A stretch of 64,000 nucleotides of DNA from Lineolata rhizophorae (lineage: Eukaryota; Ascomycota; Dothideomycetes; Lineolatales; Lineolataceae): the NCBI GenBank assembly GCA_010093515.1, contig MU001675.1:1255031-1319030 (forward strand), read 5' to 3'. Of the stretch, positions 7,035 to 63,105 are shown piece by piece; position 1 is the stretch's first letter; every line of letters starts with the position of its first letter. Made by a program: the position numbers and the translations under genes. Below the pieces are notes generated by a model. It was not told the origin of the DNA. It did no database searches and was given only the letters and a program-made list of their open reading frames with translations.

Positions 7035-8809
7035 CTACCGACGTCGTTTCGAAGGCGACTCTCCATGACCCTCCGACCGCGCCGTATCCTCGTTGTCATG
7101 TTGGCGACAACGCTTCCTCAAAAGAGTATTTGGACTTTCGGTCACGGTCAGAGGGTCATGGGGAGCACATCCTTCACCTGGTAGCTCGGGAAAATCGTCG
7201 GCTGCAAACAGGCCCTCGATATCCACGGGTTCATGTTGGAGTTCCCGGAAGAATTCGTCGACCCAGGATATGCCTGCAGCCGACCAAGGTGATTCATCGG
7301 GAGCAGTTAGGCTTGCGGCCATATGGCCAGGTTGACTTGCGACCGTACCTGTGTGATCCAAGGTGCATAAGCTTGTTCTCAAATAGATTTAGTGACTTGA
7401 AAGAAAATTATGCTTCTTTACGAACCGTCTGTTCCGTTCTTGCGGCCCGCGCTCTGGCCCAAGTTTTCAGCTTTGGGGGAAGCTTTCAGAGACTGAGCAC
7501 CGCGTGATGGCTGAACTAAATCTTGTGCATCTGACGCGGCCAATTGCTGCTGGTGCTGAGATGTCGGTGCGAAATCGGTCTGGGTGGCCCGAGATACTGG
7601 CTGCAGTTTGATGTTGGTCTCGTCGGCACACGGGTTTGGTGACGATTTGTTCCCGGCATAGGAAGACGAATTCTCATTGTTGGCTGTACTCCCCTTCGAA
7701 TAACCACCTCTCAGTCCTTCCTTCATGGCGACCTGGCAGGATTCGCAGTTGTGGATGACATTCAGACATGTGTACTTGATTCCCGGCCAGAAATACTCTG
7801 CAGCGAGCTGCTTGGTGATTTTGTTGACTCCCAAATGGCCATCGCCATGCGCTTCCTTGGCAATCTTCCTCTGCTCCTGCAGGCTCATGATGACTTGCTT
7901 GCCCTTATGAACAAGGCGACCGGACTCATCGATACCATAGCCTGAGCTCCCGCAGGTCCGCAGATAGGCTTTTGTTTTGCGGTCAATGCCATCCGGATAC
8001 TCGTTGGTGGAGAGATAATGTTTGATCATCATGAACCTCTCGATGTTGCCATCGTCATTAATTGGGAGATCTTGGGTCAAGTCTCTTCCGTAAATGATGG
8101 CATCAACAAGTTTGCCTTCTTGCGACTTCAAAGATCCGGCTCCTGGCACCCTCCCAATCTTCTTGAATCCTAGGGAATCCCAAATGCGGCACGAGACAAC
8201 ATTGGTCTCATACACAAGGTTGAATACCGAATAGGTGTAGCCCTTGCATGTCTATTAGTTGGGATCTCGACTGCGCCAAGTTCTATATGAAGCCACGGAA
8301 CTTACCAGAGAATGTGCCCATTCGATGTAAATCTTTCCCATTGCTTTGCCAACACCTTGGTTACGCGAGGCATCAGTAACGAGGAAGCCACCATTGCAGA
8401 CATGGCTCGACCGTCCCGGGTAATTGGGCTTGATGTAAAAACTGCCGAGGCAGTTCTTGGTCCAGTCATAACCACCAACGTCGTCCTCTTTGATCTTTTC
8501 AGCGTTTCCGGCTTCGCCGCGGAACATTATGGCGCCGAAGTTGGAAAACCAGTACGGACCGAACGCTTCTAGCGTGAACGGTTCCGTCATCGGGTACGTG
8601 TCGCCTCGTTCGATCTCGACGTTTAGCTGATCGCAAAGATACGACAGAAGAGAGAGTGGTACTTGTTCCAACGAGTAGAAAGGCACGACCGTCGCTATGC
8701 TGAATTTGTCGCGCAGGGTCATCACGCGCGGCATCAAGTCGCGTCCTGGCTCGAGACCGGGAGGGCTAGAAATGCGAGCTGCCTTCGGGTCTTCCAACAT
8801 CGCAGGCAT
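7035..8809 (-). CDS. Spt10-like GNAT acetyltransferase with integrase-type HHCC zinc finger
   Basis: Three exons on the minus strand: 8809-8306, 8251-7426, 7348-7035 (about 547 aa). The first ATG of the conserved part is at 8809 (MPAMLEDPKA); the frame is open to 8917 only through a TTG. A GNAT fold covers roughly residues 35-230: the acetyl-CoA loop RNQGVGKAMG is at about 149-158, followed by YSVFNLVYETN and WDSLGFKKIGRV. Downstream is a His-His-Cys-Cys unit of the integrase N-terminal type (EAHGDGHLGVNKI...CESCQ; His about 303 and 307, Cys about 337 and 340). This pairing is known from yeast Spt10, which regulates histone genes through its zinc-finger DNA-binding domain. The third exon, joined by a GTTCGT donor and CACAG acceptor, adds an acidic segment and a basic tail (SPSKRRR). 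It is a host gene; the integrase-like finger is not evidence of a retroelement here. Confidence 0.82.
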
Positions 8810-9443: not shown

Positions 9444-10820
9444 TTACTCTGGATCTCCGTATATCTCCGCATCGTACCTTTCCACTAAGGCATTACGGAG
9501 AGGATCGGATAAATGACCGTACATATTCCTGCGCAGTTTGTCTACGATCCGCTCGTAGACGTGGACGGGATTCTTCTGATCAAATCTCTTTTTCTCGACC
9601 AATTTGATCAAATCCCTCTTGTCGAAATCCGTTTCAGCACTGAGCGCGTTATCGCGCTCTCGGACTACGGTTTTCGGACGACATTTCTCCCGGTAGTAGG
9701 CGATTAACCGATCCTCAGCTCCCAGCATGCTCAGCAGATCAGAGAAACAAAAAGTGGGCTGGAGTGAGTGGTCATGGATTAGGCGGTTAACCTCTTCGGG
9801 TGTCGTATTCTCGGCAAACTTGACAAGGAGAATACAGAAGTCTATCCAGGAAAAGATTTCGTCCGGATCCATTGTCCCGCGGTGCTGACGGAATTCGACT
9901 GTGGGCTTGTATTCAAGCCCTGAACCATTGCACTGTTCCTCGTCGGCGACGACGTGGAACATGTACGCGAGCTTGTCCGAGAAAGCGCTACAGCTGTGCG
10001 CCCACTCTACAAGCCCTTGCCTATCCAAGCCATCGATTAAGGCGACCCATTCCAAAGGGTGCTTCTTTCCAGTGTCGCTGCAAAGATTTAGGGCGCGATG
10101 ACTCGGAGGCTCCAGAAAATTGTTTTGGAGAGTCCTATTCGTGGCATGTACCTCGTCAATAGTCCTCTCGAAAGCCGTAACTAGTTTAAGTATATTTTTT
10201 AGCGTCGTCGTACGGCTAAACCTTGACTTGTCAAATGTCGGCTCATGCTTGCCCGTTCCGATATGAACGTGGACTCCGCACGTCTCATTGACAATGATTC
10301 TGAAGGGATGACCGGGGGTTTTCTGATCGAAGTTTTGGCGGAGAGCGTCCAGCACGGCGGTAATTTCTTCCTTTACGCCCTTCTCATTATAGCCAAAGCA
10401 ACGACTCGAAATCTCACAGTTCTTGGCAATCAAGCCAAGTTCTGCAGCCATCTCTTCCTCCGTCAAGGTTAATTCGACGCTATTGTCGTGGCCAATTTTC
10501 CAGAAAGTGGAGTCTGCTTCCTGGACTTCAATATTGGCGCACTTGTTTGCCCATCCTTCGCCGATCTCGCACAATACGGATGTGACCAAGGATTGGCTCA
10601 AGGTATCGAAATTCCGATACCGGATATCAGCCTGGTTATTTATGTAGTGTTTGTCATCCACTACAAGCAGGAATTCGATTTCGAAACCGAATGTTAGTTC
10701 CCTATCATCGGGGTCGGTCGTTTGAGCATGCTCCGACCTCGCCGATTGTACTGATAGCTGGAACCATTCAGTCGGTTCGACCGGCCTATTAATTGCGTCA
10801 ATTGAATTAGTTCCAGACAT
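9444..10820 (-). CDS. Amidoligase-family protein (paralogue 1)
   Basis: Intronless, 458 aa, with the start at the ATG at 10820. Motifs of the Amidoligase_2 family (glutamine-synthetase/GCS-like COOH-NH2 ligase fold) are in order: FGFEIEFLL (about residues 44-52), ETCGVHVHIGTGK (about 178-192) and PTVEFRQHRGTMDPDEIFSW (about 308-327). The glutamates and histidines of these motifs are the family's expected ATP/metal and active-site residues. Such enzymes form amide bonds with ATP; substrates of the fungal members are not established. A paralogue with matching motif order is at 45756-47093 on the other strand. The gene sits as a GC-richer island next to a 2-kb AT-rich desert, and no partner enzyme is adjacent. 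Confidence 0.82.
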   Translation of the reverse strand: MSGTNSIDAINRPVEPTEWFQLSVQSARSEHAQTTDPDDRELTFGFEIEFLLVVDDKHYINNQADIRYRNFDTLSQSLVTSVLCEIGEGWANKCANIEVQEADSTFWKIGHDNSVELTLTEEEMAAELGLIAKNCEISSRCFGYNEKGVKEEITAVLDALRQNFDQKTPGHPFRIIVNETCGVHVHIGTGKHEPTFDKSRFSRTTTLKNILKLVTAFERTIDEVHATNRTLQNNFLEPPSHRALNLCSDTGKKHPLEWVALIDGLDRQGLVEWAHSCSAFSDKLAYMFHVVADEEQCNGSGLEYKPTVEFRQHRGTMDPDEIFSWIDFCILLVKFAENTTPEEVNRLIHDHSLQPTFCFSDLLSMLGAEDRLIAYYREKCRPKTVVRERDNALSAETDFDKRDLIKLVEKKRFDQKNPVHVYERIVDKLRRNMYGHLSDPLRNALVERYDAEIYGDPE

Positions 10821-12898
10821 TTTTTTAGGTATAGCAAGGAACTCTTACAAGACTTCAAGTGCTCGCTGAGGGTGTTTGGATCCTGTAAGAAGCTTCTGAT
10901 GCGAAGCCATCGCGAATATATAGACTCTAATACATATATATATGAAATAGTATACAGGAAATGCAAAGCCAATATTTGGGAACATTTCTTGTGTGGTGAG
11001 GGTTCCAGGGTTTAAATGAATAGAACAACATAAAATGGTGCGAGTAGTTTGCAAAGACAATGGACTGTTTGTGACTCACCATTACAAAGAGATGGTCGCA
11101 GCCAAACGTGCAAATTGTTTGTTCCATGGTTTAACAACGACGGATAAATGTAAGGAGCCGGGTTGCGTGGTACTATCCCCAACGCAACAGTCTGAAGTAG
11201 GTTTGCCTGCCTTGTTGCTAGCAGCTGGCCCTTCAGACCAAGCATTTTGTTGATTTACTGTTTTAGCCTCACAGACGGGGAAATGGTAGAAAGGTCACAC
11301 ACGCCGTGACTAAGGGAAAGTGAAGGAGACCGTTTAGTTGATAGCAACGTCTTGTTTTGGGCACGTGTTTGCGAGCAATGTTTGTCTAAGTAAACTTAGA
11401 TTTAGTCAGTCTAAAATATGTGTAAGATGCAGAGAATTTTAGACACTAGGTTGATATTGGACGAAATATTTGGTGTGTGAGTGTGTATCTCATATCCTAG
11501 GTGAAATTTTAATGGAGATGAACCATGGTGTCATAGCGCTAAGCGATGAGTTAGGTTTTAGGCATCCTGCGGCCCTGAAATTCAGCTAGCCGTAACATCT
11601 TTTTATGACATATGAACTCACCCAAGGCTTGATATGGGAGCTCTTTTGAGCGGTTTTCAAAAAAGACCAACAATATAAAGCATTCATAATTGCACTTTTT
11701 TAGCTTCTCTTGTATCAACACTGCAAGTTGGATTCACTGGGTTTTCTTGCCTAGCCTACACTGCTATTGTTAAGCCCACCAAATGTTGTAAAGTGTAACC
11801 TCCTAATGCTCACAGAAGTTGTGAAGTTCAGATCACTAACTAGAATGATCCTAATTATTTTTAGGTTGAATATTCAAAGCATGCCCTGTTGACTTGCGTA
11901 GTAGTCGGAGGGTATCACATTTTTCACTTAGAATAGGATTTCTCTATAAAATCGTGACGGACAAAACACCATGGTTTCCTACAAAGGCAGGGCAAAAGAG
12001 AAAAAGTAGAAGACATTTTGGACGAAGTGACATTTTTGGCGAGTTCTCTTTGAAAAAAGCTTCTTCATCTACCAGTCCGAAGGAGAATAGTACGGAACTG
12101 CATGCTGCAGAGCATGCTGCAGTGCGAAGACCAAGCACACGCTAAGCATGCGCACAGCCACATTAGCTGAACTGCGCTAGCCGTAGATCGCTGTCATATC
12201 CATGCCTTTTCATTACTATGGGAAACAGTTTAAGGCATTGCTGGGAAGTGTATTCTTTTTTCTTTTTTGTGTCTATTTCTCCCTTTTTTTGGTCGCGCAA
12301 GTTCTGTAAGGCTAAATTCGCCTCAAAAAGGCTGACGTAGAAGGCTAACCGCAAAAGGAAAGTTGTAGAAGGCTCGCATCGGGTGTACATAGCTGCCTCC
12401 CCTGGTTGCTTTCAGGAAAACTCTGCTGTGGTGGCAACTGCACGCATTTGACTTGTGGCTGCCTGTGCATAATTGTGGCTGTGAATATTATATTTGATGA
12501 ATGAGTGATTGGTCGGCTTGGTGAACAAGGTGTTGAAATCGGTAAGATCATCAACCGAAATGGCCACTTCATCCTATTGCCCTTCTATTCTGCTCTAGTG
12601 TTCAGCTGCAGCAAATCTCTTTTCTTCAGCAAGAGACATCAACATCGAACAGTATATGTGAGTATCCAGCCGCACAAGGCTTCCTCTAACCAGGCTGAAG
12701 CAAACTGAATCAGCCTCTGCGCACGGCGCTAAGCCAGTCTTATCGTATTTCTAGGGCCGCTTAGCCTCTGTGGCTCACCGGCGTTGTCAGCTCAGGCAGC
12801 AAGGAACCGCCCATCAAAGATAAATACTGAAGATGGGCTTGAATTCACCACCATGCTTTTCGCAGCTTATGCATGCTGATCTTCCTATATTTCCAGCT
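10821..12898. other. AT-rich gene-poor region
   Basis: About 2.1 kb with stop-dense frames and no recognisable protein. The part next to 10820 holds TA-rich promoter-like sequence (a TATATATATATG run near 10934). The remainder could be old sequence degraded by repeat-induced point mutation, but no terminal repeats or transposase remnants were recognised. Confidence 0.4.
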
Positions 12899-15503: not shown

Positions 15504-17476
15504 TCACAACTCCGTCTTTTCGGTCTCTGGAGACTTTACCCATTCGTTGACCACAAGCTTCGCAATATTCTTTCCCGCCAGGGCGCTCGTCTCCATTGTA
15601 CTAATGAAACTTTCGATCCCACTAGTATACCACAACGACTCACCCAGCCGCAGCTCTTCAAACGTCACACGGGGCAACTCAAACGGATACGAATGCCATA
15701 CTTTGCGATGTATCCAGCTGACGTCATTCTCATCAAGTCCGCAAAACCTATGCGGATCTTCGTTCTCGTCCCGCTCGCACGACTCAGACGAGGGCTCCTC
15801 GACGCCGAGAATCCGGGCTAAGAAAGCGTCATCAACGCGCTTGTCGGAGAAGATCTTGTAGATGCGCTCAGGCCGGCCAGGCGGAAGCGAGTGCGGATTG
15901 CGGCCTTTCTTCACGACGCTAATACTGAAGAAGCCCGCCTTTCCCGCGCCGTATTCGAGGTCGTCGCCAGGATCCTCATCGGGCTGTAGAGTCGTGAGGA
16001 CGAAAGTCGGCACGCTTTCGGATCCCGAGAGATTAAAGGCGCTAGGGGACAGGGCCCTAGGCGTGGAGAAAAGTGTCACGTGGAGTTGAACGTAAGGGAT
16101 GGTGTCGGGGAGCCTGGCGGAAGGGGAGTTTATGTCGATTCCGGAAAACTGAAGCGGAGTTGCTATGATGACGTCGTCGAAATGTTCAATGTCACTGCTG
16201 TGAGGGGATGTGGATGCGACTGAATAAAGCCCATCGGAGTTATACTCAACCGCCGTGACGCTGGTGTTGAGCCTGACATCACGCGTAGCTTCGTGGATCA
16301 TTGCGTCAAACATTTGCCAGTTACCGCCTCGCACCGCCATGGCGCCTTCAGTCGCCAAACAGACGAGACTTTCGAGGCTGTGGATGGCCGAAAGATGTTG
16401 CGCATAGTTCACTCGAGTGCTGCGGTTGTTTGAGTCACTACACTGTTCGCCACGTGCGGTGTCAATGCCAGAAAACGCACCTTGCCTGGACAATCTCCCG
16501 CGCAAATTCTCCCCACATGCCCCGCTGCTTGAAAAGAGATTCCGCCGTTTTAGTTGTCACGGTGTCAAGGCCAACGACTCTCACTGCGTCCGTCAGCGAC
16601 ACCCACGGGAACAGCGGGTCCTCGTACAGTCGTAGGAAACGGTTTATGACTTCCTTGGTGAGACGGTTTGCTCGCAGAGGAGCTGTACCATACCGCCACA
16701 GCAGCTTTGCAAAGTCCCAAATGCCTAAGCTAGCACTTTTCTGCGTGTATACGAAGGCCTCGCCGTTCCAGATGCCCAGGAAGGGTGAAACAGTGTAGGC
16801 CTCGTCAGACTGGCACTTCTTGAGCTGGTTTTCTGGATCATCCTCCCATTTCCAAACCCGTTCGTAAATATCGTCTTCCGCAGAGGACGTGGAGAGGTTG
16901 AACCTTTCCGCCGCTTCGAAAAGGATCCGGTTCATCTCGACAAATATAGATGCGCCTAATTCTACGGGCTGCGATTCATCTTCATAGGCATTGACGGTGG
17001 TTGAACGGCCACCTATGAACCCGTTTCGCTCGAACACAGTGATATTGGTAGGAACGCCTGCATCTGCAGCATACTGGGCCAAATAATATGCAGCAGAGGC
17101 GCCCCCAGAACCAGCGCCTAGAGCCCACGTCAGATGACGCCAGATGCACGACATAAATAAAATTGAGGAAACAGTAATATTAACGCTACAGACCTCGGCT
17201 ACGCTGACTATATGGCAATGGCCGCCGCTACTAGATGAGCAGCATTGATGGTAGTCATATGAAGCAGGCCAAGATGTGGAAGACTCGTAACGTACCGATG
17301 ATAGCGACACGTTTGAGGCTCACCTCGCTAGAGGAAGGCTCGAATATTGGCTCTTCTGCGACCGATGCATCGTGATTGAAGCCTGCCGATATGCTGTTTG
17401 CTTGTGCGAGAGGCGCTCGTACACCGTTTCGCAACGCAGCAGCTTGAAGCAACCATAGGAGGGAGTTTGACCGCAT
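15504..17476 (-). CDS. Prenylcysteine oxidase (prenylcysteine lyase)
   Basis: Three exons: 17476-17296, 17117-16481, 16419-15504 (577 aa). Residues 1-25 (MRSNSLLWLLQAAALRNGVR) form a signal peptide or anchor, as expected for a lysosomal/vacuolar enzyme. The first intron interrupts the FAD-binding Rossmann motif, which closes as VAIIG-AGSGGASAAYYLA (about residues 57-73), followed by VFERNGFIGGRSTTV. The conserved VELGASIFVEMN and YAQHLSAIHSLESLVCLATEGAMAV-type block of the prenylcysteine lyase domain follow, the latter rebuilt across the second intron (EIVQA-STRVNY). The enzyme oxidatively cleaves the thioether of prenylcysteines from degraded prenylated proteins, giving cysteine and an isoprenoid aldehyde. 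The first intron (178 bp) is long for this genome. Confidence 0.9.
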
Positions 17477-35601: not shown

Positions 35602-35649
<48 letters not shown>

Positions 35650-35652
35650 CGG

Positions 35653-35724
<72 letters not shown>

Positions 35725-45482: not shown

Positions 45483-45755
45483 CGTGCACATATCTACAGT
45501 CATGGTACGGGTGAAGTGTCAATATTTCAGCAACACTGCAATGCTTCAACCTTATAAAACCTCTAAGCAGGTACTGTTCTTAAGCTATACTGACATCACA
45601 GTCGACTATAAATTGCCAGCAAACTGTTTGGGGAAACTGTTAAGTTTGTCACTATTCCTTCAGTAACTCACTCCCGAGCAGGCTCCTTTCTAGGATTCCA
45701 TCTTGGCCTTTTTGTTTGTCCTCATCAACTGTTTGTTCCAGCTCGACACGTAAAG

Positions 45756-47093
45756 ATGAGCGGCGATCTACAGGGAAAGAAGCCGATTAGCATCGGCATT
45801 GAGTTGGAGTTCGTAGTTCTCTTTAGGAACGACATTTACCAGCAATTCCTGGAGGATGGCCAGAGCCGGTACGCAGAGATGCAAAAGGTCTTAACTTGGA
45901 TCCGGAACAGGATCGCTGATGGACTTCCAGGCGAGAGCATCCGCGCCATTGCTCGACCGAGCGAGGAGTCACACGGCACCTGGACCTTTACGACTGATCA
46001 CACAATCGAAATCTCTCCTGCTATGATGGATTCATACAACCCGGAGCAGCACTTCAGAGCCGTTGGCATCGAGCTACGCAGCCCAGTCATGGACCTTGCT
46101 CGAGACGAGTGGACCACCAGAATTAGAACCATAGTCAACAAGCTGAAGGAAGCCATCGATGGCGACTGCAGCCCCAACCAGCCGACTCGCCTTGTCCTCT
46201 CACAGAAGTGCGCGATGCATGTCCATCTCTCCGATGGCCCCGAGGTGCGCGCCTCCTTCGAGGCGTGCAAGAAAGTGCTGATGCTCCAGCTTGGCTTCGA
46301 GCGGCAACTCGACGAAGCACTGACCGTTTCGCGCATGTGGGGCAATAAGTGGTGCCGGCCATTGTCAAACTGCTGGTATGACTACGAGATAGTGGCAGGG
46401 TTTCCACCGGAGTTCCAAGCACTTTCCTTGACCGCGGAAGACAAGATGCCCGACTGGGACCCCCTGGACGCCGTCCGCTTTCTCTGGGGGTTCGGACCCG
46501 ACGAAATTGACAACCTCTGGATATCCCAGAGCAACATCGTGAGCATTTGGTACGCCTGTGCTAACTCGCAGGTGCCGACGCTGGCCGAGTACGAGGCTTG
46601 CGGCGACCTTCCGCCCACCACGTCAACGCAGAAGGCGACCGTCGAGTTCCGAGGCCACCGCGGCACCCTCGAGCCGGACGAAATCGTCTCCTGGATCTGG
46701 GTCTGCGCCGCGATGTACGACTTTGCCCGGACCACCTCAATGGGCCAGGTCGACCAGCTCGTTCGCGAGCACGCCAAGACGGCCATGTTTCCAGACTTCC
46801 TGCGCCTGATCGGATGCAACGTGTTCGCGCGTCAGTGGTACGTGGACGCTCTCGAGAACGATAGCAACGCCCAGGCCGAGCTCAAGGCGTGGCAGGAGGG
46901 AGACAACCGCAGCATGTTCTTCCAGCTCGTGAGCGCGCTGGCTCGTGAGCGCTTCAGGGAGTGCAGGAGGATGTCCGTCCTCAGCGAGATCTGCCGCAAG
47001 TTGTTGGCGAACCGCTATGGTTGGTTTGATGACCAGACGAGGGCAACATTGCGAGCTAAGTATGCGGGCGAAATTAAAGATCTTGAACTCTAA
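45756..47093 (+). CDS. Amidoligase-family protein (paralogue 2)
   Basis: Intronless, 445 aa from the ATG at 45756. It has the motif order of the Amidoligase_2 family: ISIGIELEFVVLF (about residues 11-23), SQKCAMHVHLSDGPE (about 149-163) and ATVEFRGHRGTLEPDEIVSW (about 293-312), with WTFTTDHTIEISPAMM between them as the conserved 'EI' strand. Aromatic-rich WISQSNIVSIWYA is a likely core segment. The family joins a carboxylate and an amine using ATP; the fungal substrate is unknown. It shares the same architecture as the gene at 9444-10820, but sequence between the motifs is quite different, so the two are old paralogues rather than a recent duplicate. The gene is GC-rich in an AT-rich setting, with 4.5 kb of gene-poor DNA downstream. 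Confidence 0.82.
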   Translation: MSGDLQGKKPISIGIELEFVVLFRNDIYQQFLEDGQSRYAEMQKVLTWIRNRIADGLPGESIRAIARPSEESHGTWTFTTDHTIEISPAMMDSYNPEQHFRAVGIELRSPVMDLARDEWTTRIRTIVNKLKEAIDGDCSPNQPTRLVLSQKCAMHVHLSDGPEVRASFEACKKVLMLQLGFERQLDEALTVSRMWGNKWCRPLSNCWYDYEIVAGFPPEFQALSLTAEDKMPDWDPLDAVRFLWGFGPDEIDNLWISQSNIVSIWYACANSQVPTLAEYEACGDLPPTTSTQKATVEFRGHRGTLEPDEIVSWIWVCAAMYDFARTTSMGQVDQLVREHAKTAMFPDFLRLIGCNVFARQWYVDALENDSNAQAELKAWQEGDNRSMFFQLVSALARERFRECRRMSVLSEICRKLLANRYGWFDDQTRATLRAKYAGEIKDLEL

Positions 47094-52532: not shown

Positions 52533-53516
52533 CTACTTATCTACGCCTACCCCCTCCGCACACCTCTCCGTCTCCAAATGCTCATGATAAACGCATAGAT
52601 CCCTCTTCCACGGCTTGCAGCTCTCCGCATTCTTGCCCTCCTCGCCCCCCGGCCGATTCCCCGGCAAATCGACGCACGACGCCCGCCCGGCGACCAGACA
52701 CGGCGAGCACCAGGCGCGGCCGCAGCCCTCGCACAGGTTCGCGACGCTGCCGGGCCCGACGACGCGGCTGCAGCCGCCGCAGGCGCGCGCCGCGTTCCAA
52801 CTGGGCGGGCACCACTCGGCGAAGCGGTGGCGGCGCAGGGCAGCGGCGTCGGCTCGCTTCAGCTTGACAGCGAGCTCGCGCAAGAACTGCGGGTGCCAGT
52901 GGTCCGGGTGGGTGGCGAGCAGGGCGTCGGTCTTCTTGAAGGCGAAGAGGTCGAGCACGAGGGCGCGCAGCGGCGCCGAGGGCCGGATCGCGACGTACAG
53001 GAGGTGTGTGTCCGAGGGCGTGGGCACGGCGTTGGCGCGCTCGGCGAGCGTGGCGACGGCGTCGACGATGTCGTTGCGCAGGTCTTCGATGCAGAGGCGG
53101 TCGGCGAGTGAGTAGAGGTGCAGGAGAGAGAAGAATGCGGGCTTGCCGTCCTTGAGGAAGGGGCCTGTGGCCTGCGGCGGCGCGCTGGGTGGAACGATGG
53201 GTGTGGTGTGCGAGCGAGAAGACGGCGCGGGTGATAGTCCGGGGGGATACGTCGTGTCGAGGCGCTGTGAGTAGAGCCATTCGACGAAGATCTCGAATGT
53301 GTCGACTCGCTCGTCGGGTAGATTGACCTTCTGAGTCTCCGCCTCGGCGAAGTTGCCTTTCAGAGCGGCAGCGAAGAAGGGCGAGTAGTGCGTGAGGAGG
53401 TCGCGGTGGATGACAAAAGGATTCTGTGCAGCACGGCCGACGTAGACTTCCGCCATGGTTTGGAAGGTCAGAAACTTATTCCTATAGGCGTTACTCATCA
53501 GCAGGTGTATATACAT
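52533..53516 (-). CDS. BTB/POZ domain protein with Cys-rich C-terminus
   Basis: Single exon, 327 aa at most; alternative starts are Met7 (53498) and Met21 (53456, MAEVYVG, at the domain edge). The BTB fold begins AEVYVGRAAQNPFVIHRDLL, THYSPFFAAALKGNFAEAET and VNLPDERVDTFEIFVEWLYS, as in fungal BTB proteins. A Pro/Ser linker is followed by the helical LLHLYSLADRLCIEDLRNDI segment (BACK-like). The C-terminal part has CGGC, CEGCGRAWCSPC and two further Cys (about residues 235-310), suggesting a zinc-binding module not common to the family. BTB domains mediate dimerisation and often adapt Cullin-3 ligases; whether this one does is unknown. Confidence 0.8.
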   Translation of the reverse strand: MYIHLLMSNAYRNKFLTFQTMAEVYVGRAAQNPFVIHRDLLTHYSPFFAAALKGNFAEAETQKVNLPDERVDTFEIFVEWLYSQRLDTTYPPGLSPAPSSRSHTTPIVPPSAPPQATGPFLKDGKPAFFSLLHLYSLADRLCIEDLRNDIVDAVATLAERANAVPTPSDTHLLYVAIRPSAPLRALVLDLFAFKKTDALLATHPDHWHPQFLRELAVKLKRADAAALRRHRFAEWCPPSWNAARACGGCSRVVGPGSVANLCEGCGRAWCSPCLVAGRASCVDLPGNRPGGEEGKNAESCKPWKRDLCVYHEHLETERCAEGVGVDK

Positions 53517-54833
53517 CGTGAGTCACGAAGTTTCTTTGTTGGCGTCCAGGCGTGCTCACCACGGCGAAGTTGCCATGCGCATTTGCCAAGACCTGACGTA
53601 CTTCTGTCTCTCACTTCGGCTTGTACGTACCGTAAGGTCCACTTCTCCTTGACCCTTGAACTTGCCATAATGGGCACGCGAGTGCTATTTCGCAGCTGAC
53701 TTGTGCGAGTTGTTTCTAGAGACATAGCTCCAACCAGGTCAACAAAGCCGGACTCCGAAACGTACATATGGAAGGGCTTCTGGGATGTCGCGCATAGGGA
53801 AGAAGGGAATCCCATTGAAAGGGAAGGTTCCTGTGTTCTTCAGAGCCGTTGCAGCTCCAACGCCGTGCCTCGCAAATAGCACTCACATGAATGGCGGGCG
53901 AAGTGTTTGCAACACTTCACCTGTACGCGACACGTCCCACCGGAAGCGACCCAACAAGCAGCTCTAAGCCAACCACGTACCCGCGTGACGCAGGAACCAA
54001 CGAGCGAAGATTGGCTGGCCCGACCTTGGGCCGTGAAGCGCTGATTTCCCCTCAAACTAGTGATCCGAAGCGCAATGATGATGCGTGGACAGTCCACTTG
54101 CGCAAGTATGTATGATTTAGGTACATGATCCTCATCGCGATAAGCGCTATAAGACACGCATTAATGGACAAAGCAGTGATCGAGCGAATTCCCCCCCATC
54201 GTGGCGTTTGCGATGCTTTGTTGTGGTTTCGCTGCATGCACGCAAACGTAATGTAGGTGGTGGCTTTATTTAAACGTGTGACCAGAGTAGATCGAGCGGC
54301 GTTCGAGCCACACGCAGCTGACTAGTAATTCTGGACTTCTGAAAACGGTGGCGAGCCAATCATTGAAGAATGTGCTATCCCTAATTGACCCGCATCGTCC
54401 CTCATGGTATTGTCCACTGGAACCAAAATCCACATACCGCATCCAAAGAGCGACCTGGTCACGTGCCTTACCTTGGAATGTGGAAGCTGTTCATATCAGC
54501 GTGAGAGTCGCACAGCCCAGCACCACACATCCCAATAGCATAATGCAGACATTTTGTGAAAGTATTACAGTATTTTGGGCTAGTAGCATGAACAACACCA
54601 CTGTTTGCCTTGACGAACGCCTGAGGCAAACCCGGAAAGAGTACACCAAAGGAAACATTTTGGGTCACACAGAGAATAGAATACACGGCATTAAAAACAG
54701 CAGATTAGCCGCCTAAGGTATGCAGCTTTTCACCAAGTACTTGCCGTTGCTGCATAATAGCCCGCCTTGTGTGAATAAACCATCTGTAATTCGCCAATTT
54801 CCCCAGAAGGAAGTCGGCGAAATGCACCCGTGT
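53517..54833. other. Intergenic region BTB / KH protein
   Basis: About 1.3 kb between two minus-strand genes: the BTB promoter and the 3' flank of the KH protein gene. Open frames of 60-120 codons are present, but none has a domain or homology I recognise. Confidence 0.4.
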
Positions 54834-56438
54834 TTAGATGCGGTGCTTCTCGCTCTCTATTGGTTGTTGGCTGTTAGTTCCTGGATTTCTTTGGTCCCTT
54901 CTGCTCTAGGCGGGATAACTCACCGAGCCTCGAGTAGAGCATGTACAGAGCAATCTGGTTGCATTCCTGAGTCCCAGTAATGGTAACCAGTCGCTCATTG
55001 CTATTGTCCTGCGGCTCGTTGATCTTGATAACACTACCGCTGAACTGGCGGATTTCATTGATCTTGGCACCGCCCTTTCCAATAATAGCGCCAACCATGT
55101 CGTTCGGAATGAAGATCTGTTGGGTCATAGGCTGTCCAGGCATCACACCCTGCATAGGCTGTGCTCCAGCTTGACCAGCCGCATGAGGAACCGCACCACC
55201 GTGCTGCGCCGCTGCCGCAGTGGCTTGAGGATGTGCACCATATTGCTGCGGCTGGTGAGGACCGGCGCCAGTGTAGCGGTTCGGAGATCCTGCGCCATAA
55301 TGGATAGGCGCCTGTGCCTGCTGTTGGGGAGGCTGACCATGCAAGTAGGGAACACCATACGGATTGGCTGGAGTGCGCTGAGTCGTGTTCGTATGCTTGC
55401 GGAAGTTGTCCGGGTGGCCCCACTGACCACCAGCAGGTTGCGGAACGTACGGGACAACTTGCATGCCACCCGGAACAACACCAGCAGGGCCACCGCTACG
55501 GGTGGCGTAGGCAGAAGCGGCGGGGCCACCAAAGCGCTCGGTGAGCTGATCAACGAGAGTACGGCCAACATAGTACGTAGCAATATGGACAGCATCGGCG
55601 ACGCCGAGGATAACTAGCGACCGTTCGCTGGAAAGAGGAAGACAAGATTCCGAGGCATTGAGACGAGCACCAGAAGCCTCCTGGATCTCACGGATGCGGA
55701 CACCGGATTTGCCAATGATGGAACCGATCAAAATGTGAGGAATCAGGAGACGAAGAGGGTACGTCTTTGACTGGGGGGTGGAGCTGGCCTCGAGAGGCTC
55801 ATTATTAAGGGTGCGGATAATCAAGCCAAAAGCCTGCCGGAGGATTAGTTCCTGTCCAAACCATTTCACATGTAGCTCAGAGATTCCAAACTCACCTTCG
55901 CAACCGCATCAACTTGACCACTCACGGTCAAGATACGCTCCACAGCTCCCCTCGAATAATCGCTGACGGTGCACCTAGCGCCTGAAAGGCGGCGAATCTG
56001 GGTAACATTCTCACCGCCCTTTCCAATAACAGTCGCAGCCTCGGCGCTCGAGATGATTGCGCGAACATGAAGCCAATTGGTCTCATCCTGGGGTGGTCCC
56101 GCAGCACCCTGCGAGGCGCCGCGGGGATTCGAGCTCGACGCCGTGGACTGAATCGGCTGGGTCTCAAGAATAGCTATTCCAGCAGCGGCAGGCGCATCCG
56201 GCACGACAGTATCGCCGTGGACATCCTTGTTGCCATTTTCGGTCGACGGGATTCCCGCACCGGCATTGTCCGCAGGCTGAGTGGCGGCTTGAGCATTGTT
56301 CGCCTCATCTTCCTTCGCAACCTTATCCAAAGCCGGGCGCTTGGCGTCAGGTTGATCACCGGGTCCAGACGGCGAAGAAGGCTCTTCCAGAGGGCGCTTC
56401 TGAGAAGGAGCCGAGGTAGGCGTCGGTGAGGCAGACAT
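54834..56438 (-). CDS. Triple-KH RNA-binding protein (Rnc1/PBP2 type)
   Basis: Three exons on the minus strand: 56438-55896, 55833-54924, 54856-54834 (491 aa). The last 23-nt exon gives the expected ending YSRLESEKHRI; reading through the intron instead gives a less typical tail. Three KH domains are visible by their GxxG loops: GKGG at about 139-142 (VIGKGGENVTQIRRLSGARC), GKSG at about 222-225 (IIGKSGVRIREIQEASGARL), and GKGG at about 430 (IIGKGGAKINEIRQFSGSVI). Residues 285-395 form a Gly/Pro/Gln/His/Ala-rich linker (PHQPQQYGAHPQATAAAAQH). The N-terminus is a Ser/Pro/Ala-rich disordered region with SQKRPLEEP. Homologues bind and stabilise specific mRNAs (Rnc1 in fission yeast, PBP2/HEK2 in budding yeast); the exact ortholog name is an inference. 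Confidence 0.93.
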
Positions 56439-57820: not shown

Positions 57821-58549
57821 ATGCTCGAAACAGTCGAGATCGCGTACGTGACGCCCGCGCCCGGCGCCAACTTCGCTGATGCGGAGAGCGATGCCGGCAA
57901 GGCGCTCGCGCTCGTCAACGAGACGTCGTCCAAGCAACCGGGCTGCAAAGCCAATTATTACGGCCAACAAGTGGAACATCCCGAGCTCCTGCAGCTAGGC
58001 ATTGGTGCGGTAGAATCATCGCCTCCACCCATCTCAGTCTAACATGACGTTCGATCACCAGTTTGGACCTCCGTCGACGCACACAAAGCCTTTACGGAGT
58101 CACCCGATTATGGGGCGTTTCTAGCAAGTGTTCAACCCGTCGTTGCCGGTCCGGACGCTATCCGTTTGTTTCACGTCGAGCTCGCGACACCGTTTTCGAC
58201 AGCGGCATCCGCACCAGTCGTCGAGTTCCTGACCTGCTACTTCCCGCCGTCATACTCTAACGCTCAATTCGACGCCGTGTGGGACAGTTTTGCTTCCGAA
58301 CTGATGACCACGGCGGACGGCGCGAAAGGAACAGTTGGGGGATGGGTTGTGGAGGAACTGGAGCACAAGAGCTTGGAGGCCCATGGCGGGAAGGGGAAGG
58401 CGTTTGTGGCGGCGATTGGCTGGGAAAGCGTGGAGAAGCACATGGCTTATAGGGATACTGACAAGTTCAAGGAGATCATCCAGCCGTTCAGAAAGGAGGT
58501 CAGCGGAATTGAGATGCACCACGTGGAATTGAAGCTATGGCAAGGTTGA
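57821..58549 (+). CDS. ABM-like dimeric alpha/beta barrel protein
   Basis: Two exons: 57821-58004 and 58062-58549 (223 aa). The join GI-VWTSVDAHKAFTESPDY is in phase. The protein reads as two ferredoxin-like halves: residues 1-110 (MLETVEIAYVTPAPGANFAD; VWTSVDAHKAFTESPDYGAF) and 115-223 (VEFLTCYFPPSYSNAQFDAV; GWESVEKHMAYRDTDKFKEI; a closing MHHVELKLWQG strand). The 'W-x-S-x-x-x-H-x-A(F/Y)' pattern in both halves is typical of antibiotic-biosynthesis-monooxygenase and stress-responsive A/B barrel families. These include cofactor-free oxygenases and uncharacterised binding proteins, so the activity is open. No signal peptide is seen. Confidence 0.78.
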
Positions 58550-59117
58550 GGGTGGTTTAGTGTAGGGTACTGGTGGGTGACGTACCTGGCGTGGACCTTC
58601 AGGAGGCGACAGCTTATTTGCGGTTAGACGTTTTCGGCAGGCGCGACAGTGTATTGTGGAGCATTGCCGCCGCTAGACTAAAGAACAGTGTTGGTATGAT
58701 GTTTTTCATTTCAATTTTATTCGTTCTATGACCTGGTATGCCCATAAATTGACCAATGTTTTCCGGCTAACACGCACTACCGACGGTCAAGCCATCTTGA
58801 CAGACAACCACCGGTGACAATGCCAGCTTTTGTATATGCTACACGTGACTGCTTTAAAAAAATTTCGACCACTCAAGAATAGTTGAAAGGGATCGACCCC
58901 TTTCAGTTGTACCTTGTCAAGAAACTTCGCGAATTAATGCAATACAAAGCCATGAAGACTCCATCCCCAGTGCTCTAGAAGATTGACAGGAGAATCTGGC
59001 AGCGCCACGCCGCCGAGTTTCGGAATCCTTTATCCTCGTCCCTGGAAGTCAGATCCCCTCGCCGCCGATCACCATACCTTCCCCCCTCCAACAAGCACCT
59101 CACACCAACTTCTTCAA
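58550..59117. other. Convergent intergenic region
   Basis: 3' flanks of the ABM-like gene and the repeat-peptide precursor. No gene is supported. Confidence 0.4.
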
Positions 59118-59549
59118 TTAGGCAGACTCCTCGTTGACGTAGGGCTTGACGCCCCCACCGGGCGTGCTCTCCACGGGGTCGGTATCACCACGCTTCCTCT
59201 TGCCCGCCGCCTCGTTAACATACGGCTTGACGCCGCCGCCAGCAGTGCTCTCGACGGGATCCGTATCGCCGCGCTTGGCCTTCCTCTTACCCGCCGCTTC
59301 GTTGACGTACGGCTTGACACCGCCGCCGACCGTGCTCTCGACGGGGTCGGTGTCGCCACGCTTGGCCTTCTTCTTGCCGGCCGCTTCGTTGACGTACGGC
59401 TTGACGCCGCCACCGACGGTGGACTCAACGGGGTCGGTGTCGCCGCGCTTGCCCGGCATGTGCACGGCCGGGAAGCCGCGGTCGGCGAGCTCGTTGACAT
59501 AGGGCGCGACGCCGCCGTTGGCGGTGGACTCGACGGGGTCGGTATCACC
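59118..59549. repeat. In-frame coding tandem repeat of the peptide precursor
   Basis: Five units starting (minus strand) at 59549, 59444, 59357, 59270 and 59189, spaced 105, 87, 87 and 81 bp. Units 2-4 are nearly identical at DNA level, with changes mostly synonymous or in the spacer. Confidence 0.92.
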
Positions 59550-59682
59550 GCGGGCGTGGAGGGCTGAGATGTGATGTTAGTGGAAGCGCGCTCGGATGGA
59601 CACGGTGAGGGAGAGACGCACCGGGCGCCGCAGAAGCGAACGCGAGGATGGAAAGAATGGCGGCAATGGAGACAGGCTTCAT
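59118..59682 (-). CDS. Secreted tandem-repeat peptide precursor with Kex2 sites (KEP-like)
   Basis: Two exons on the minus strand: 59682-59622 and 59563-59118 (168 aa), joined APG^gtgcgt..ctcag^. Residues 1-18 (MKPVSIAAILSILAFASA) form a clear signal peptide. After a short APALHAR spacer come five copies of GDTDPVEST-x-GGGVxPYVNE. Copy 1 is divergent and longer (continuing ELADRGFPAVHMPGKR). Copies 2-4 end EAAG followed by KKKAKR, KRKAKR and KRKR; copy 5 ends NEESA at the stop. The KR before each of copies 2-5 is a classic Kex2 site, so processing would release several near-identical peptides of about 20-23 residues. There is no Cys or Trp, so it is not an alpha-pheromone; the Tyr in PYVNE leaves a dikaritin-type RiPP possible, but no DUF3328 oxidase is in the window. 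I do not recognise the peptide. Confidence 0.85.
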
Positions 59683-61680
59683 CTTGGCTTTATTGTCGGG
59701 TTGAGGTTCGGCGTCTTGACTTTTTGCTGATGTTTCTAGGGAGTGAAAAAACGGTCGGCCGGCGACAAACGGGCAACTGGAATTCGAAATAAAAGAAGGG
59801 AGTGTGATGGTAGTGTGAAGTCAAGAAGAAGTAAAGCACACAGCACCCGGCTTGTCGAAAGCAAAGCAGCAGCAGAGAACGAAGTGAATGGTAAGAAAGG
59901 GTAGAAAAGAAGGGTAAAGTCCAGGCGCGAGCGAGGGAGGTCATGCTAAGGCATTTGTAGTGCGCCAAGGCTGGTTGTTGTCCTGCATGGAGATCCACAC
60001 GCATCGTGAGACGAGGATGAAACTACTGAAGCGGGTCCGGAGATCCCCCCGGTTTGAGCCGCATTTCCAAGAAGCAGAACTCTACGACCTTGAGTCAGCA
60101 AACAGAAGCCAAGAAGAAACTCAGTCGGGTTACGATGAGATGGTCAATTGCATGTATGTCGAATCTACGTCTTGAATTCCAAAGCAAATGGGTTGTGGTA
60201 GTATATCAACATCAGATGTTGAAGTCAAAGTAGAGGTGCGTCGAAGACTAGACTCGAGACGATACGAAAGAGGCTTAAAATAAGGACGGTCGGGGTATAG
60301 CGCCAACTCCTTGTAGCAGAATGTTGTGGGCCGCGCGTCCAGGCCCTCCGGCGTAGGGCTCTCAAAGCACGGGAACCGGGGAGGACGCCAAGAAGGGGGT
60401 GGAAGTGATGCGAAACCGGGCTCAAACTTTGCCGAGACGTCTGGAACGCTTCCTCACACTGCCAGGCTCCCAGGCCAAGAAAGCTGGCCGCGCCTCGTGA
60501 AGGGGCCAATCGGAGCACGTCTCGTTACGTGATGGGAACAGAGTCGAATGCGGAAGTCTCACTCTGGGAGCGGATTTCGAGTTCCACCTTGGAGCTCCGC
60601 CGCGACCGATGACACGGGGCTGGAGATGGGTCCCAGCACGTGAGGCTTGCGGCCAAGGCTATATCACGTGCCGAATTGCACGTGACCCAAAGCGTTCTTC
60701 CCGTCACGTGCGCCAAATGTTAATCTTATCGCCTTTGCGCCGTGCAACCGCGGCGCCGCCCAGAAGACGGTCAGGCGCATCCGTCACCGGCCAGGGTCCG
60801 GTTCGCTGGCCGGACAGCTCGCCGTGCGTCCCCCGGCCAGCCCCCAACGCCCGCGTCCGACAACCTCCGCGAAAGCCGCCGACAAACCGCCCGGGAACGA
60901 GGACGTCAACGACGCCTTGGGCCCAAGGTCTCGCCCCCGCCCCGAGCCTTCTCGAGCGCCCGACTCCGCCCAAGATTCAACCGTGGGCACCTCGCGCCCG
61001 TTCCCCTCTGGAACGCGGAGCGCCGGTGGCAGGCACCTAGATCCCATTTTAACAGCCGAACTTGACTAGCCTACACGTTGCACGCACAGCCTCCACGCTC
61101 CGGCCCCGGTGTTGGCTTGGAGTTGCATTTCAAATCCGTGCAACGCCGGCCCCGGCTCCAGTTTTGCGCGCTCGCTCTCAAGCTCTTCACTTCTGCTTTC
61201 CTTGCCGCGTTGTTCTGCAGCTACACGGCGGAATTTCTGGGCCAGCAAGCTGGCACGTCTCTCGTGTGAAAGTCCCGTCTGTCGTTTGTCTGGGCCACGT
61301 AGCTGTTGGCCGGTTTCTTGTCTCGCCTGTGGCCGCTTGTTGGGCGTCGAACCTTAAAAAAGAGACGTACAACACGTGGACCCAGCCTTTCCGCGTAGCT
61401 GCCTACCTACCTACCTCGGCACCCAGCCTCTACTTATCTCTGGGTCCCGCGGGGTTTAAACTACATAAACGCCGCGCGGCCGCTCTTCTTCGGGAACCTT
61501 TAGTAGATAGCTGTTTTGCTCTTTTGGTTGCCAAATCCCTAGGTTGCGCCCAAACAAACAAACTGGCCAGGCCAACATCTGCCCAAACCGCGCTGCTCTA
61601 CCAACACGACCAGCGGGTCTCTTAACCCCTTCCCGCCAAACCTCGGAGCGCGAATTCGCCAGGCCGCACCCGCAGCTACC
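59683..61680. promoter_or_regulatory. Divergent intergenic region, repeat-peptide precursor / AMMECR1
   Basis: About 2 kb between divergent start codons; GC-rich from 60.3 kb on. It contains the cluster of four CACGTG boxes at 60637-60710 and another CACGTG near 61374, with CTACCTACCTAC at 61404. No additional gene is supported. Confidence 0.45.
60637..60710. promoter_or_regulatory. Cluster of four CACGTG E-boxes
   Basis: CACGTG occurs at 60637, 60665, 60679 and 60705. The cluster lies about 955 bp upstream of the peptide precursor and about 970 bp upstream of AMMECR1. CACGTG is bound by bHLH regulators (Cbf1/CPF1 and SREBP-like families); which one acts here is unknown. Confidence 0.55.
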
Positions 61681-63105
61681 ATGGCCACGCAGGCGCATTG
61701 CGCGTATTGCTTCGAGACGCTGGCCTCCAGCCTCGAGAAGCGCCCCGCGCTCTCCCTGCGCGAGATCGAGGACCTCTGGGAACAATACAACGGCCCGAGC
61801 ACGGACTCGGATTCCGCGCCGGAGCTCGGGCTCGGCGGCGTCACCGCCGACGAAGACGACGACGAGGACGACGAGGACCCCATCCTCGAGGACGATGCCG
61901 TCGCCGACGCAGATGCCGACGACGATGACGACGACGACATGCCCGACGCCGATGCGGACGCGGACACCGCCGCCGCCGCCGCCGCAACCACGACTGACCA
62001 CCGCAGCCGCCCCGCGGCCATAAGCCGGCTGCTGGCCCCGCCAGGCGCCGCCTCGTCGTCGCGGGCGTCCAGCTCCTCGGCGGGCGGCGGCCGCGGCTCC
62101 GCGACGCCGCCGTCGTCCTCGGCCGCCGGCTCCAAGTCGTCCAGCCGCTCGTCGCTCTTCTCGTTCTCGCGGCCGTCGTCGTCGTCAACCACGCCGGCGT
62201 CGTCGGCCGTCGCCACCGAGACCGGGAGCAGCGGCAGCGGCGACGGTGGAAGCGGCGGTGCCGCCGCCGGCTCCAAGAAGCGGAAGCATGCGCTGGCGTC
62301 GGTGATGGCGGCGGCGCGGGCGGGTGCGGGCGTGGGTGGGGGGTCGGCGGCCAAGGCGCTCAGGATGGCGGGCAGGCGAGGTGTTGCGGGGACTAGGGCT
62401 GGTGCTGGTGCGGAGGGCGCGGCCGGCGAGCATCCGTTGTTTGTCACGTGGAATACGGTCAGTGCGAGGACGGGGAATAAGAGTTTGCGGGGTTGCATCG
62501 GGACGTTTGAGCCGCACGAGCTAGAGCATGGGTTGAGGAGTTATGCGTTGACTTCGTAAGTTCTTTGGTTTTACTGATTGTGGGTCGTTGCTGCACGTGA
62601 CTTCGTGGCTTGAGGGGCGCGGGGTGCGAAGTTGTTGCAATTGTTGTCTTGCTATTCGAGAATTCGGAGGTTTCTGTGCGATGGCGCGAGCCCGAACTGA
62701 CCTCGAGCCCGCAGTGCCTTCGACGACACCCGCTTCAGTCCCATCGGCATCCGCGAGCTGCCCAGTCTCGAGTGCGGCGTCACGCTGCTGACGGACTTCA
62801 GGCCCATCGCGGACCCGCTGGGCTGGACGCTCGGCGAGCACGGCCTGCGCATCAACTTCACGTACCACGGCCGTCGGTACGGGTCCACGTACTTGCCGGA
62901 CGTGGCCAAGGAGCAGGGCTGGACTAAGGAGGAGACTATGGTCAGCTTGATGCGCAAGGCGGGCTGGTCGGGTCGTAGGGACGAGTGGAGGAGGGTCGGC
63001 GACCTCAGCGTCATTACGTACAAGGGGAAGAGAGCCGATCTGGATTATCTAGAGTGGAGGGAGTGGAGGGATTGGGTGGACAAGGGGGCTAAGGTGGGTG
63101 AGTAG
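61681..63105 (+). CDS. AMMECR1 domain protein
   Basis: Two exons: 61681-62555 and 62715-63105 (421 aa). The first ATG (MATQAHCAYCFETLASSLE) starts the conserved N-terminal end of the fold. A long acidic Asp/Glu and Ser/Ala/Gly insertion (about residues 45-245, including DDDDDDDMPDADADADT) splits it. The domain then resumes with HPLFVTWNTV, LRGCIGTFEPHELEHGL (the family's invariant LRGCIG at about 267), FDDTRFSPIGIRELPSLEC, VTLLTDFRPIADPLGW, GLRINFTYHGRRYGSTYLPD and VAKEQGWTKEETMVSLMRKA. The ending is EWRDWVDKGAKVGE. The intron falls inside the fold and closes exactly (ALTS-AFDDTRF). AMMECR1 proteins are near-universal, but their activity is not settled. The large insertion is the unusual part. 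Confidence 0.93.

Follow-up and report, generated by a model that had tools for sequence, protein, structure and literature searches.

The window, by which we mean the whole 64-kb stretch of DNA that was analysed, belongs to contig C6 of the mangrove fungus Lineolata rhizophorae (Dothideomycetes, Lineolatales) and carries on its minus strand, at 59682–59118, a two-exon gene whose spliced product, according to the splice model, is a protein of 168 amino acids (Table 1). The locus itself, its five repeat units, the KR dipeptide ahead of four of them, and the phase 1 intron were all found where the original prediction had placed them. The start codon at 59682 has an A at position -3, and the intron splits codon 21. 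Without splicing, the frame opened by this ATG stops after 45 amino acids, and therefore the intron is required for the signal-like sequence and the repeats to be read as one protein; its CAG is the only CAG/TAG acceptor within the first 160 nt counted from the ATG. The adjacent KH gene of the same contig, in which the intron was located by mapping back the deposited protein, with 484 of its 491 residues placed, has a single intron of about 62 nt with a similar set of signals, GTGAGT...CTAAT...CAG. Third-position GC is 0.84 in the repeat gene versus 0.56 in the KH gene. The signal-like N-terminus has a K at position 2, a hydrophobic core with an 11-residue hydropathy maximum of 2.75 on average (IAAILSILAFA), and small residues ahead of the likely cut.

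Table 1. Features of the repeat precursor gene and its recognisable neighbours, in window coordinates.
Feature	Positions	Strand	Details
Exon 1: start codon and signal-like sequence MKPVSIAAILSILAFASAAP	59622..59682 (61 nt)	-	Splice model
Intron, spliceosomal, phase 1	59564..59621 (58 nt)	-	GTGCGT donor, CTAAC branch-like site from 59580, CAG acceptor
Exon 2: the five units with their basic spacers, and the stop codon	59118..59563 (stop included)	-	Splice model
Unit 1 GDTDPVESTANGGVAPYVNE	59490..59549	-	LHAR (monobasic) before, LADRGFPAVHMPGKR after
Unit 2 GDTDPVESTVGGGVKPYVNE	59385..59444	-	KR before, AAGKKKAKR after
Unit 3 GDTDPVESTVGGGVKPYVNE	59298..59357	-	KR before, AAGKRKAKR after
Unit 4 GDTDPVESTAGGGVKPYVNE	59211..59270	-	KR before, AAGKRKR after
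Unit 5 GDTDPVESTPGGGVKPYVNE	59130..59189	-	KR before, ESA-stop after
BTB protein	52536..53522	-	Pfam match
KH protein	54877..55908	-	Pfam match
ABM-like ORF	58043..58549	+	Below Pfam cut-off
AMMECR1	61543..62556	+	Pfam match

The five units are 20 residues long and of the type GDTDPVEST-x-GGGVKPYVNE, with unit 1 divergent. Tandem Repeats Finder independently delimited units 2–5 (59131–59451, period 87, 3.8 copies, score 404). The spacers between successive units measure 15, 9, 9, and 7 residues; units 2–5 each follow immediately upon KR, and ahead of unit 1 there is a single Arg and no dibasic site. If the precursor were cut after KR and the full basic tail removed, units 2, 3, and 4 would each give a core of 23 residues, and unit 5, which forms the natural C-terminus, is likewise 23 residues long, an agreement in length that fits with units extending up to the start of their basic tails. 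Unit 1 would yield a 33-residue form. Trimming of terminal K and R alone, with Kex1 acting on its own, would leave KKKA and KRKA tails on units 2 and 3, respectively (27 residues), unless the convertase also cuts within the basic spacer. The original prediction had assumed the release of three or four identical peptides; in fact only the predicted cores of units 2 and 3 are identical, as position 10 is A in that of unit 4 and P in that of unit 5, the latter also ending in ESA, and unit 1 differs as well. The 23-residue cores are acidic, with a computed pI of 4.05, and their computed monoisotopic masses are 2218.04 (V form, AAG), 2190.01 (A form), and 2304.04 (P form, ESA).

The way in which the units differ from one another points to the protein as the level at which they are conserved. 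Among units 2–5, 14 of the 18 variable DNA columns fall on third codon positions (binomial P = 1.4e-4), and the same holds for 14 of 22 when all five units are compared (P = 0.0035). Pairwise dN/dS was 0.01–0.15 among units 2–5 and 0.19–0.43 for pairs that include unit 1, single values being rough, because the five units are short, with no more than about 16 synonymous sites apiece, and are not independent. With dS of 0.31–2.35, units 2–5 show at most one residue change per pair. When an equal number of base changes was placed at random in each unit (20,000 runs), the simulated departures from the consensus averaged 23.9 residues with a minimum of 14, versus 5 observed. Even serine 8, which is common to all units, is encoded by TCC in units 1 and 2 and by AGC in units 3–5. 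The units thus appear to be maintained as protein more than as DNA, with selection acting on the mature peptide, and the copies would be either old or fast-diverging at silent sites, with the peptide held nearly constant. The original prediction had taken the DNA identity of units 2–4 as a sign of recent array homogenisation. This does not fit the alignment, because the differences between the units are mostly silent: identity is 90.0% for units 2 and 3, 83.3% for units 3 and 4, and 78.3% for units 2 and 4, within a range of 77–90% for all units, and just one pair of cores is identical.

The low rate of residue change is specific to the proposed frame, in which 16 of 200 pairwise comparisons of residues differ. 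The two other minus-strand frames gave 91/190 and 83/190, and the three plus-strand frames 91/200, 28/190, and 85/190; the alternative frames were rejected as coding on these higher counts. Plus frame 1 is also low in residue change (28/190), but it contains stops in units 1 and 5. An open frame of 203 amino acids traverses the array in the antisense direction, at 58956–59567 on the plus strand. Its residues vary freely among the units (91/200), and for this reason we regard it as probably a side effect of the GC-rich repeat.

The architecture, with a spliced frame, a signal-like N-terminus, and KR before four of the five units, agrees with the Kex2-processed secreted repeat precursor that had been proposed for this locus. 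Kex2-processed repeat proteins (KEPs) have been defined by at least three tandem repeats, each of at least 8 and none of more than 100 amino acids, between KR, KK, RK, or RR sites, with detection that also uses SignalP and a 40-residue seed score (Umemura 2020, PMC7329392). The Lineolata protein fits this definition as regards repeats and dibasic sites: its units 2–4 lie between such sites, and unit 5, with one ahead of it, forms the C-terminal end. The survey reported 7,878 KEPs in 1,345 of 1,461 strains, and 2,560 of them, or about one third, had no homologue; 22% had a DUF3328 neighbour and 6,120 of the 7,878 did not (Umemura 2020, PMC7329392), and the Lineolata gene resembles the latter. 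Its unit length falls within the class of 9–24 amino acids that was described as the commonest in most Dikarya groups (Le Marquer 2019, PMC6339444). What the Lineolata precursor has in common with the class is the layout of a signal-like N-terminus followed by repeated units parted by dibasic sites; its unit sequence is different, and matched none of the database proteins searched (about 92–294 amino acids). The claim that the precursor is of an unrecognised type therefore stands for its sequence, for which no Pfam family exceeded its cut-off and no homologue was found at E ≤ 10, but not for its kind, since the KEP class has been published (PMC7329392). The genome also encodes a Kex2-type convertase, a protein with Peptidase_S8 and P_proprotein domains on contig C5, which holds the one P_proprotein match found in the genome. 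The roles of Kex2, Kex1, and STE13 have been established for alpha pheromone (PMC6339444).

A search for homologues, which had been recommended together with the original prediction, found none for the full precursor at E ≤ 10 among the 4,021 word-sharing database proteins, within a scope (proteins of about 92–294 amino acids that share exact 5-residue words) that distant or differently modelled relatives could escape. At this sensitivity, the predicted gene is an orphan. Lineolata is represented in the searched database at least by a deposited KH protein from contig C6, which the KH protein of the window matches at 96% identity over 93% of the query. The repeat precursor itself is missing from the database proteins of 92–294 amino acids, and therefore the deposited annotation seems to lack it. 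This suggests that no gene of that length was annotated at the locus and that the gene is probably unannotated; its absence could also reflect a lack of transcript support. In Pfam, no family exceeded its cut-off (best PF14975, E = 1.3, 10.1 bits versus a cut-off of 27), NCBIfam, a library built for bacteria and archaea, gave no match at E ≤ 1, and a scan of the window with Rfam gave none at the gathering threshold. Among PDB sequences, eight distinct entries appeared at E ≤ 1, namely two tau constructs (best E = 0.00043) and six of ribosomal protein L4 (from E = 0.22); the tau match we tentatively attribute to a common composition of Gly/Lys/Pro repeats, and none of these matches is credible.

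The gene is present in a single copy in the 30,968,845 bases and 48 contigs of the genome. A search for paralogues gave three matches: the two exons of the locus and a Lys-rich stretch in an 847-amino-acid open frame on contig C17 (E = 0.42), which was dismissed as compositional. A 14-base pattern had two matches in the genome, on contigs C8 and C28; the units of the window itself were not among them. No second array of this kind was found among the tandem repeats of the window. In the open-access texts as far as they were accessible to the search, fragments of the unit sequence led to no related work, save for the paper on KEP motif 3, which was retrieved through its own motif, and no open-access paper combined Lineolata with the term 'Kex2-processed'.

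Motif 3 is DADAATxYV[A/V]D (Le Marquer 2019, PMC6339444). A synthetic repeat of it, used as a query and scored against the 8,000 candidates with the most words in common, retrieved three proteins at E ≤ 0.1, from Blastomyces and Histoplasma, with units SDADAATMYVVD or SDADAATRYVVD. Compared by eye, they bear a loose likeness to the Lineolata units, as each Kex2 unit contains D-x-D, then T, then Y-V-x-[D/E]; they differ in having 12 residues and no GGG stretch, and the motif itself does not occur in the precursor sequence. When the precursor was compared by BLASTP with P0121, one of the three motif-3 members (and the one that was compared), the sole alignment (E = 0.16) placed unit 5 against the P0121 tail. 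As this alignment involves the tail and not the repeat units, it gives no evidence of common descent, and the likeness is a lead only.

Multi-copy precursors with Kex2 sites also serve ascomycetes as sources of alpha pheromone, so that the layout of the Lineolata protein would also suit the alpha-type sexual pheromone of this lineage, if its peptide were an unusual one. An alpha pheromone should exist somewhere in the genome, as a match to the STE2 receptor was found in two pieces on contig C32. The hallmarks of the ascomycete alpha pheromones are, however, missing: as had been noted in the original prediction, there is no Cys/Trp core, with 0 Cys and 0 Trp in all 168 amino acids, the PYG[L/M]P[I/V]G core described in PMC6339444 is absent, and the starts of units 2–5 have GD after KR instead of the XA or XP dipeptide of STE13 (signature from PMC6339444). 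KA does occur after KK or KR within the spacers that follow units 2 and 3, in both cases with a further KR before the next unit. A genome search with the alpha-pheromone family PF04648 gave no match, which says little, because with 13 positions this family is a poor detector of the pheromones of filamentous fungi. The STE2-type match leads us to expect a separate pheromone system, and we consider the pheromone reading improbable. Still somewhat less probable is a dikaritin-like RiPP precursor, in which a Tyr-containing core would be cyclised by UstYa-type enzymes. The precursors of ustiloxin and phomopsin have the same signal-like N-terminus, Kex2 repeats, and Tyr within the unit, and here each unit contains one Tyr, in a PYVNE sequence found in 5/5 units. 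UstYa matches are also present in the genome, where an exon-by-exon search, the counts of which are lower bounds, found at least four for PF11807 (UstYa/DUF3328), two on contig C10 and one each on C22 and C42. None lies on C6, which is where the Lineolata gene differs from dikaritin precursors, and the absence of a DUF3328 partner that had been claimed for the window thus extends to the whole contig. Where KEP genes do have DUF3328 neighbours, the mean distance has been given as 3.09 genes (PMC7329392). The closest recognisable neighbours of the repeat gene are instead AMMECR1, the BTB and KH proteins, and the ABM-like ORF, as seen in a scan of 20 of the longer ORFs of the window against Pfam, which may have overlooked smaller genes. 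About 7.7 kb separate the repeat gene from the end of C6, and the last 3 kb of the contig contain no TTAGGG or CCCTAA, so no telomere is seen there. As the UstYa match nearest to any contig end is still about 23 kb away from it, on C42, no joining of contigs would put these four matches directly beside the gene. Additionally, at 23 residues, the cores are on the long side for dikaritins.

Two other readings question the processing or the gene itself. The precursor might be a secreted repeat protein that works uncut, or at the cell surface as a structural component, in a role comparable to that of the Rep1 type. Cleavage is something we only infer, and the Lys-rich spacers might also bind cell-wall material. 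Against this, KR stands exactly at the start of each of units 2–5 despite the unequal length of the spacers, and this alternative, too, appears improbable. That the locus is not a functional gene at all, but a GC-rich tandem repeat in which a reading frame happens to stay open, would fit with the lack of relatives, with the lack of an entry among the database proteins of 92–294 amino acids, and with the further GC-rich simple repeats elsewhere in the window. The frame-specific conservation of the units, the splice sites with a branch-like site, and the signal-like N-terminus all argue against an accidental frame, making this the least probable of the alternatives.

Taken together, the features of the locus make it very probable that L. 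rhizophorae encodes a KEP precursor that is secreted, cut by Kex2, and releases several copies of a linear peptide. Once transcribed and translated, the precursor would be routed into the secretory pathway by its signal peptide, a Kex2-type convertase would cleave it after the KR sites, and the C-terminal basic residues would be trimmed off, so that several linear acidic peptides of about 23 residues, GDTDPVEST-x-GGGVKPYVNE-AAG/ESA, would leave the cell. As to their use, extracellular signalling among conspecific hyphae seems the likeliest candidate, although we propose it tentatively; an effect on other organisms comes next, and a structural or uncut use is less likely. It is more doubtful, but conceivable, that the peptide is restricted to this lineage and has long been kept by selection on the 23-mer, and that it serves Lineolata as a dedicated extracellular signal or as an effector, which, if true, would make it a new type of bioactive peptide. 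Such peptides would be missed by both KEP catalogues, because these, as described, start from annotated proteins (PMC7329392, PMC6339444), and the present case suggests that genes of this sort can escape annotation-based surveys. As a class, KEPs are well known, and the general importance of one more member is modest; what the locus adds to this large and mostly unexplained class of fungal peptides is a well-delimited orphan precursor with mature masses that can be tested.

Elsewhere in the window, a poly-G run of about 123 bases (35602–35724) passes directly into 10 N (to 35734), and this junction is most likely an artefact at the edge of an assembly gap. Two separate Amidoligase_2 (PF12224) ORFs lie within the 64 kb, at 9447–10844 on the minus strand and at 45612–47090 on the plus strand. 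The minus strand additionally carries a strong Pkinase_fungal ORF (235–2832, E = 1e-141), an Integrase_H2C2/zf-H2C2 ORF that represents a piece of a retroelement in a stretch of lower GC content (7421–8251), and a prenylcysteine lyase that extends over two ORFs (15507–17319), presumably split by an intron or a change of frame.
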